A DNA stretch of 64,000 nt from Candidatus Cloacimonetes bacterium HGW-Cloacimonetes-2. GTDB taxonomy: Bacteria > Cloacimonadota > Cloacimonadia > Cloacimonadales > Cloacimonadaceae. Below are positions 9,729 through 10,882 of the stretch, piece by piece; the first letter of the stretch is position 1; each line of letters opens with the position of its first letter. The stretch lies in the NCBI GenBank assembly GCA_002842035.1, contig PHBP01000003.1, positions 186,001-250,000 on the forward strand, in the 5' to 3' direction. Under the pieces are notes generated by a model, which worked only from the letters and a program-made list of their open reading frames with translations, searched no databases and had not been told where the DNA came from. The position numbers and the translations under genes are program-made.

Positions 9729-10077
9729 GGGGGTGATATGGTTTCGACAGGGAACTTTGAGTGTGAGAGATGCATGCCGGAGACGCTATCCACTCCGTTA
9801 ACAAGTGGCAACAAAAATTAATTGCAAACAACAACTACTCCTTAGCAGCATAAGCCGCTAACGTTCCACCTTCCCGTTCCGTCGGGGAAGAATGGGGCGT
9901 CGTAACAGTACGGACGCTCTGCAAGTAGTGCCTGGTGCTTGCAGCTAAGACTACGGGCTGGGTTCAGAATGGGTCTGATTGCCTTCCCATCTGAACTGAG
10001 ACTAAAGACAACTAAGCATGTAGATTCGCTTGCAAGCGGTTCTTTGGACGCGGGTTCGATACCCGCCACCTCCACCA
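9729..10077 (+). ncRNA. ssrA: Transfer-messenger RNA (tmRNA)
   Basis: One-piece tmRNA of 349 nt. The 5' end GGGGGTGATATGGTTTCGACAGG-type start pairs with CACCTCC before ACCA at the 3' end (seven pairs, one G-U). The T-arm GCGGGTTCGATACCCGC and an encoded CCA are present. The tag reading frame starts at GCA 9824 and stops at TAA 9851: tag ANNNYSLAA. The conserved Ala-Ala end for ClpXP-type proteolysis is kept. It rescues stalled ribosomes with SmpB. A TTGACA lies at 9674 but no clear -10 was seen. Confidence 0.95.
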
Positions 10078-10083
10078 ATTTTG

Positions 10084-10113
10084 GTTAATGAGTGAACAAG
10101 TTAATGAGTTAAT
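10084..10113 (+). repeat. Left inverted repeat flanking S23-family gene
   Basis: The core of 22 bases (10084-10105) reads GTTAATGAGTGAA, then C, AAGTTAAT; it is followed by a further TGAGTTAAT. The reverse complement matches 10515-10536 with one mismatch. It starts 7 bases after the tmRNA CCA end. Confidence 0.8.
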
Positions 10114-10133
10114 AGTGACATAGGGGCTTAGCT

Positions 10134-10499
10134 ATGATGCACACGGATTTGAAAGTATATCAGGAGAGCATCCTACTGGTAAAGGATATCTATAACCTTA
10201 CCAAAGATTTTCCCAAAGATGAGCAATGGGGACTGGTATCTCAGATGAAGCGAGCTGTTATATCAGTGCCATCCAATATTGCTGAAGGTTCCGGACGAAA
10301 AACCAGAAATGAGCTGAATCAATTCCTGAACATAGCAATGGGCTCCCTTACAGAGCTCGATACGCACCTCGAGATTGCCGGAGTTTTGGGATTTGTTGTC
10401 GATGCTGGCGTATTGACCAGGACAAAGAATCGTTTGGATGAGGTTAAGCGAATGCTGGCAGCTTTGCAGCGGAGCTTAACAGCCCCATCTCCCAGTTAG
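10134..10499 (+). CDS. Four-helix-bundle protein (S23/IVP family)
   Basis: 121 residues (or 120 from the adjacent second ATG). It has the hallmark SVPSNIAEGSGRKT motif and all-helical pattern of the '23S rRNA intervening sequence protein' family (TIGR02436-like), related to the Avd accessory proteins of diversity-generating retroelements. Members were first seen inside 23S rRNA intervening sequences but often stand alone. A weak AGGGG precedes the first ATG. The gene lies between inverted repeats and separates tmRNA from rpsO, so it looks inserted. No reverse transcriptase or variable repeat is near, so a retroelement role is not supported here. Molecular function is unknown. Confidence 0.85.
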   Translation: MMHTDLKVYQESILLVKDIYNLTKDFPKDEQWGLVSQMKRAVISVPSNIAEGSGRKTRNELNQFLNIAMGSLTELDTHLEIAGVLGFVVDAGVLTRTKNRLDEVKRMLAALQRSLTAPSPS

Positions 10500-10514
10500 C
10501 AGGTTGGAATCACG

Positions 10515-10544
10515 ATTAACTTATTCACTCATTAACTCATTAAC
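10515..10544 (-). repeat. Right inverted repeat flanking S23-family gene
   Basis: ATTAACTTATTCACTCATTA and following bases. The core 10515-10536 is the inverted match (21 of 22) to 10084-10105; an extra CTCATTAAC unit follows, mirroring the extra unit on the left side. Confidence 0.8.
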
Positions 10545-10612: not shown

Positions 10613-10882
10613 ATGCCACTAAAACCTGAGGCTAAACAAGCTATCATGGCAGAGTTTAAACTCCATGAATCAGACACAGGATCCCCTGAAGTACAGGTTG
10701 CGATGCTCTCACGTCGTATCAACGACATCACTGAGCACCTGAAAGTCCACAGTAAGGACTTCTCAACCCGTCGGGGTCTCTTGAAGCTGATCGGGCAACG
10801 CAGGCGCCTCCTTGATTATATGAAGCGTGTTGACATCGAACGTTACCGCTCCATTATCAAGGCCCTGAATATCAGAAAGTAA
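10613..10882 (+). CDS. rpsO: 30S ribosomal protein S15
   Basis: 89 residues, the usual family length. Contains the family core [16 protein letters not shown] (21-36), '[25 protein letters not shown]' and the terminal [13 protein letters not shown]. It binds helices 20-22 of 16S rRNA early in 30S assembly. GGAGG lies 7 bases upstream of the ATG. It is followed by a terminator-like hairpin and then pnp, the conserved rpsO-pnp order. Confidence 0.97.

Follow-up and report, generated by a model that had tools for sequence, protein, structure and literature searches.

Inverted degenerate repeat arrays as the ends of S23-family gene cassettes, in a tmRNA-rpsO gap of Cloacimonadota and across bacterial phyla

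A gene of the S23/IVP family (PF05635) lies between the tmRNA gene and rpsO of Candidatus Cloacimonetes bacterium HGW-Cloacimonetes-2, and we consider it probable, with a confidence of roughly 0.6, that the unit bearing this gene is one of a widespread kind of minimal mobile cassette, made of one S23 gene with inverted degenerate arrays of 7- or 8-bp units as its ends. For the class, the comparisons below reveal the anatomy and the insertion behaviour, including derivatives that consist of arms only, copying within a genome, matched change of the two arms, and a scatter of the array unit mainly in genomes that carry S23 of the fitting clade.

Anatomy of the cassette

In the window, by which we mean the whole analysed stretch of 64,000 nucleotides, the cassette spans 10084-10544 (461 bp), with the S23 gene between inverted arms. 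The features are as follows.

9729..10077, + strand: ssrA, the tmRNA gene (ARAGORN; tag ANNNYSLAA), left neighbour of the cassette
10084..10118, + strand: left arm, a degenerate octamer array (GTKAAYRA x4) with a terminal TGA, its G-rich strand reading inward
10134..10499, + strand: S23/IVP four-helix-bundle gene, 121 aa, with matches to PF05635, TIGR02436 and PDB 2gsc
10510..10544, - strand: right arm, an inverted octamer array of the left arm's unit type (repeat finder, pattern match)
10613..10882, + strand: rpsO, right neighbour (ORF)

The first-pass annotation had described 22-bp inverted repeats with one mismatch, and in fact the repeat finder pairs 10084-10105 with 10515-10536 (22 nt, 95% alike) and, in extended form, 10084-10118 with 10510-10544 (35 nt, 83% alike); but these are not simple repeats, as each arm consists of degenerate GTKAAYRA octamers, four in tandem, followed by TGA. 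The left arm reads GTTAATGA GTGAACAA GTTAATGA GTTAATAG TGA and the right arm, taken as its reverse complement, GTTAATGA GTTAATGA GTGAATAA GTTAATCG TGA, where the order of the units is unequal between the arms and where the extra TTAATGAG unit noticed beside each repeat finds its place as part of the array. The left arm does begin just past the tmRNA CCA end as had been stated, at a spacing of six bases. A three-unit octamer pattern matches only these two arms within the window, shuffles predicting zero matches, and the inverted-repeat score of the flanks of this S23 gene is 20.0 against a mean of 8.4 and a maximum of 11 in shuffles. Between the arms the S23 gene is the sole gene-like ORF, with a second ATG at 10137 just after the first, and the cassette encodes no transposase, recombinase or reverse transcriptase, which speaks against its being mobile. 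The T-rich / TTTACA stretch upstream of rpsO, kept by several relatives, lies beyond the end of the cassette.

The 121-aa product matches PF05635 at 9e-34 (116.3 bits, cut-off 33.8) and TIGR02436 at 3.3e-32 (110.9 bits, cut-off 24) in the profile search, is weakly similar to the bAvd model, and matches the solved relative PDB 2gsc at 3.5e-22. Judging from its structure paper's title, which PMC3936711 cites, this relative (2gsc / Xcc0516) is a pentamer of four-helix bundles, and by analogy the window protein may be a pentamer as well. In Coxiella the S23 protein is apparently not produced in vivo (PMC4990558), which counts against the mobile cassette favoured here. A phage collection searched for S23 yielded no match. 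Elsewhere in the window genome (G000:C6:41117-41329), a 257-aa frame with similar frames in several relatives gives a sub-threshold PF05635 match; its nearest octamer-like array is more than 1 kb off, and thus it is not an obvious cassette.

Recurrence of the design across S23 loci

When GTDB genomes were scanned with an S23 alignment, 80 loci came up in many phyla. Further loci were added by a family search, and the enlarged set holds 170 distinct S23 loci, spread over more than a dozen phyla. In the first survey, where inverted arms were called at an inverted-repeat score of at least 14, this score was reached by 86/130 S23 flank pairs and by 3/143 control ORFs from the same loci (Fisher 2e-33). 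In the enlarged set inverted arms are present at 118 of the 170 loci and direct repeats at 19, inverted arms or an array at 142, and about 50 loci are without clear inverted arms; the distinct S23 loci on cyanobacterial plasmids have inverted arms or an array in 6/6 cases. The period is strikingly constrained, being 7 bp on 98 sides, 8 bp on 57 and another value on four, that is 7 or 8 bp on 155 of the 159 array-bearing sides, and shuffled flanks yield no such periods. Moreover, the arms follow a strand rule, for among the 118 inverted-arm loci the left arm has G>C on the sense strand at 111 and G<C at 6. An array-rich genome as the cause of this picture was rejected, as the background density of 7/8-bp arrays is low in the sampled relatives (0 to 3 per 100 kb, whether or not the genome has S23 genes).

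The array unit varies by lineage, and the two arms within one cassette remain alike. Cassettes whose proteins are more than 80% identical mostly share their unit, and below 60% the units are unrelated with each cassette's own arms still alike.

The ssrA-rpsO gap in related genomes

The gap is readable, with ssrA and rpsO close to each other, in nine related genomes that share the GTDB family (Cloacimonadota). In G025, G002, G029 and G010 it holds an S23 gene, broken in G010, with inverted arms whose units are GGTTAAYR, GATTARCA, GTTAACGG and GGTGAAC, respectively; in G021 it holds arms alone, as an AGGTGTC hairpin whose unit recurs in an S23 cassette at another place of that genome (L148); and in G016, G033, G011 and G012 it holds remnants or is empty. 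The six placeable ssrA-side S23 genes form one group in a 79-row tree, recovered in all of 200 bootstrap trees on a short branch of moderate support (99/49). From these sequences, the S23 gene probably arrived at the ssrA site in a single event, and both arms changed together afterwards. Since the ssrA-side genes are one clade and only few of the 170 loci lie near a tRNA or tmRNA gene, the window copy looks like an old resident insertion, probably inherited in this bacterial family, and the proposal that tmRNA 3' ends serve as insertion targets, or tRNA and tmRNA 3' ends as general ones, has to be given up. The first-pass annotation had also looked to this gap for presence or absence of the unit with precise ends, and the outcome is divided: some relatives carry the gene with flanks that have diverged, both together, others are empty or have arms only, and presence or absence with precise ends is seen in related cassettes (nrdB/nrdA and G005, below) and not for the window copy.

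Insertion, copying and scatter of the unit

In Nostoc edaphicum pNe_5 the order is nrdB / S23 / nrdA with TAGGGAG arrays, and in Calothrix NIES-4105 nrdB adjoins nrdA with no array between; since this site is empty and free of arrays, the pNe_5 insert spans from array to array. Pseudanabaena galeata and Anabaena sp. 90 likewise have S23 cassettes in the cas6-cas4 gap, and four related plasmids have the gap without such a cassette, ABRG5-3 showing there a short AATTACG array. Such cas6-cas4 insertions (L180, L183) place S23 cassettes inside type I-D cas operons on plasmids of cyanobacteria, and this may account for S23 having been reported as a CRISPR-linked family; S23 genes in cas loci have been noted previously (PMC3936711). 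In G005, two cassettes 5.1 kb apart are 96% identical, where the match runs from array to array and the flanks are unrelated; the sister species G013 and G023 are without these two cassettes, and the homology of their flanks ends at the array start. The nrd junctions display no clear target-site duplication, the nearest empty sites being too diverged for close comparison there and likewise at the G005 sister sites. With these occupied and empty plasmid sites, the G005 copies and the recurrence at 118/170 loci, the earlier suggestion of a small mobile cassette carrying only an S23 gene is supported. Other small repeats and GGCCGACGCAGTCGG hairpins break up the arrays on one side of a G005 cassette (L253:600-1700), and it looks as though further small elements land in arrays.

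The array unit is also scattered through genomes. AGGTGTT arrays reach at least 10 copies in G005, G030, G027, G004, G025 and G018, and other genomes have two or fewer, among them G021 with two hits, which belongs to the clade with AGGTGTC arms. The S23 clade with AGGTGTT arms is found in G005, G030, G004 and G025 by the tree and in G027 by best match. Accordingly, at least 10 copies occur in 5/6 genomes that have the matching S23 clade and in 1/44 others (Fisher 2e-5), and arrays of AGGTCGAG occur in 3/3 genomes with their matching clade and in 2/47 others, namely G029 and G061 (Fisher 5e-4), where both tests ignore shared descent and clade membership was assigned after the arms were seen, not blind. 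In G011 all four AGGTCGAG arrays are the cassette's own arms. Two genomes, G018 and G029, have scattered units with no matching S23 gene detected, and may have lost it. In the window genome, where solo arrays were sampled by pattern, about 25 array places have no S23 gene; repeats without S23 genes had been named beforehand as counting against a cassette, and they do exist, but in relatives the scatter of the unit tracks the matching S23 clade. At three places (L001, L022 and L024), solo octamer arrays adjoin a GC-rich hairpin, e.g. GCAAGGACTGCGTCCTTGC, and precede CTGCGC in a REP-type-like arrangement.

A second family with array ends

GxxExxY genes (PF13366) of the same bacterial family were intended as a negative control, ParE toxins having too few members to serve. 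In fact, inverted ends are present at 51/61 GxxExxY loci (L261-L328), and their arms are autocorrelated at 9 and 10, with no signal at 7, whereas in S23 arms the autocorrelation has its peaks at 7 and 8 and falls below zero at 9 and 10. With the control array-ended too, the class extends beyond S23, and each protein family has its own period; with GxxExxY ends comparable to S23 ends, a mechanism built on S23 only is not the whole story. Tentatively, S23 and GxxExxY might both belong to a single, so far undescribed class of minimal mobile elements, in which the protein reads the unit and the family sets the period (7-8 and 9-10 bp, respectively), and from which many unexplained heptamer arrays could stem. 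About ten PF13366 matches cluster at G011:C1:786-828 kb. The idea that arms act as translation stops in all frames was dropped as not general, the inward value being 0.55 against 0.20 in shuffled sequence for S23 and 0.04 against 0.17 for GxxExxY.

Alternative explanations

The likeness of the two arms might be kept not in DNA but in RNA. The unit would then resemble the intervening sequence (IVS) of 23S rRNA, its arms pairing in the transcript, RNase III cutting the stem and the S23 RNA leaving host transcripts, with selection on the pairing. RNase III excision of the Coxiella IVS (PMC4990558) offers a precedent; the window arms are able to form a terminal stem around the S23 ORF and pair in the predicted fold of the unit (z -2.7), and over the set the mean duplex energy is -51.9 kcal/mol for a cassette's own arms and -12.3 for swapped ones. 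Yet among transitions between the arms, those compatible with G-U pairing in the sense RNA do not outnumber those breaking the pairing (125 vs 127, in a test blind to strict Watson-Crick selection), and as the mismatches show no excess of G-U compatible changes, sense-RNA pairing is not visibly the force that keeps arms alike, so a process at the DNA level fits better. Pairing also leaves unexplained the fixed period, the tandem structure and the genome-wide scatter, and sits poorly with the unequal unit order of the window's arms; altogether we regard such an RNA element as unlikely. An origin of the arrays as ordinary slippage-prone host repeats, as proposed in the literature for heptamers, on which S23 genes merely land, is less likely still and already disfavoured. 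Heptamer arrays are indeed widespread and have been reported with no mention of S23 (PMC4692102, PMC4679880), and the 25 or so solo places, the small repeats inside G005 arrays and the short array in the ABRG5-3 gap would agree with it. But random landing in an array predicts direct repeats and no strand rule, not the inverted arms observed, the background is sparse, the empty nrd and sister-species sites are without such an array, and the scattered unit tracks the S23 clade.

About as improbable as the RNA element is a non-autonomous cassette that has S23 as its cargo and is moved by the enzyme of another element, such as a reverse transcriptase or an IS200/RAYT-like transposase. It gains from the REP-like hairpin-plus-array units in the window genome and G005, from the lack of a known catalytic fold in S23, and from the resemblance of S23 to Avd (bAvd model), the accessory protein of diversity-generating retroelements (DGRs). 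Against it, no reverse transcriptase match (PF00078) is found in the 99.55%-complete window genome, other genomes have S23 genes and no detected reverse transcriptase, and Y1 transposases went undetected in several S23-bearing genomes, and partnerships with either enzyme were rejected; moreover, the link between array unit and S23 clade is not expected of pure cargo. At G011:C1:1390132-1391257 and G004:C87:71689-72808, a reverse transcriptase stands beside a weak S23/bAvd-like hit, and these loci are probably DGRs.

Relation to known systems

The 23S rRNA IVS of Coxiella burnetii combines an S23 ORF with inverted ends of 28 bp and has GACAGAT heptamers directly ahead of that ORF (PMC4990558), and by this analogy fits as one insertion of the present cassette kind, which makes the suggested route of such cassettes into rRNA loops plausible. 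Like the window cassette, the IVS is a 0.4-0.5 kb unit with an S23 ORF and inverted ends; the window unit differs in lying between a tmRNA and a protein gene and not within an rRNA gene, in having degenerate arrays at both ends, and in its lineage-specific units. Degenerate 7-bp intergenic arrays, many per genome and unexplained, have been described in Nostoc and other cyanobacteria, Xanthomonas and Beggiatoaceae (PMC4692102, PMC4679880); there they were linked neither to S23 nor to a paired inverted orientation, whereas here they are the ends of cassettes. REPINs and MITEs are likewise short and dispersed with inverted ends, and the G021 ssrA gap has an arms-only form, but the S23 cassettes come with no identified transposase partner, and their ends are arrays with a family-specific period. 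Avd of DGRs is also a four-helix bundle and a distant homologue (PMC10053308), but it goes with a reverse transcriptase. Among the open-access papers searched for S23, PF05635 and GxxExxY, we found no report tying S23 genes to arrays.

Proposed mechanism and its meaning

For the mobile cassette that we favour, we propose that the S23 protein, a pentamer in the solved relative, would recognise the repeated unit of its own arms as DNA and would recruit replication or recombination functions of the host or of other origin. These functions could then copy the cassette, or the arms alone, into intergenic DNA, and repeated copying together with unequal exchange would make the two arms uniform even as the unit drifts.

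On this explanation, the S23/IVP family, known from split 23S rRNAs and cas loci, and the widespread heptamer arrays would share one cause, and the S23 genes listed as CRISPR-associated (PMC3936711) may in many cases be insertions. If S23 binds the unit of its own arrays, these cassettes would rank with the smallest of known mobile elements, and their two ends would rewrite themselves in step.
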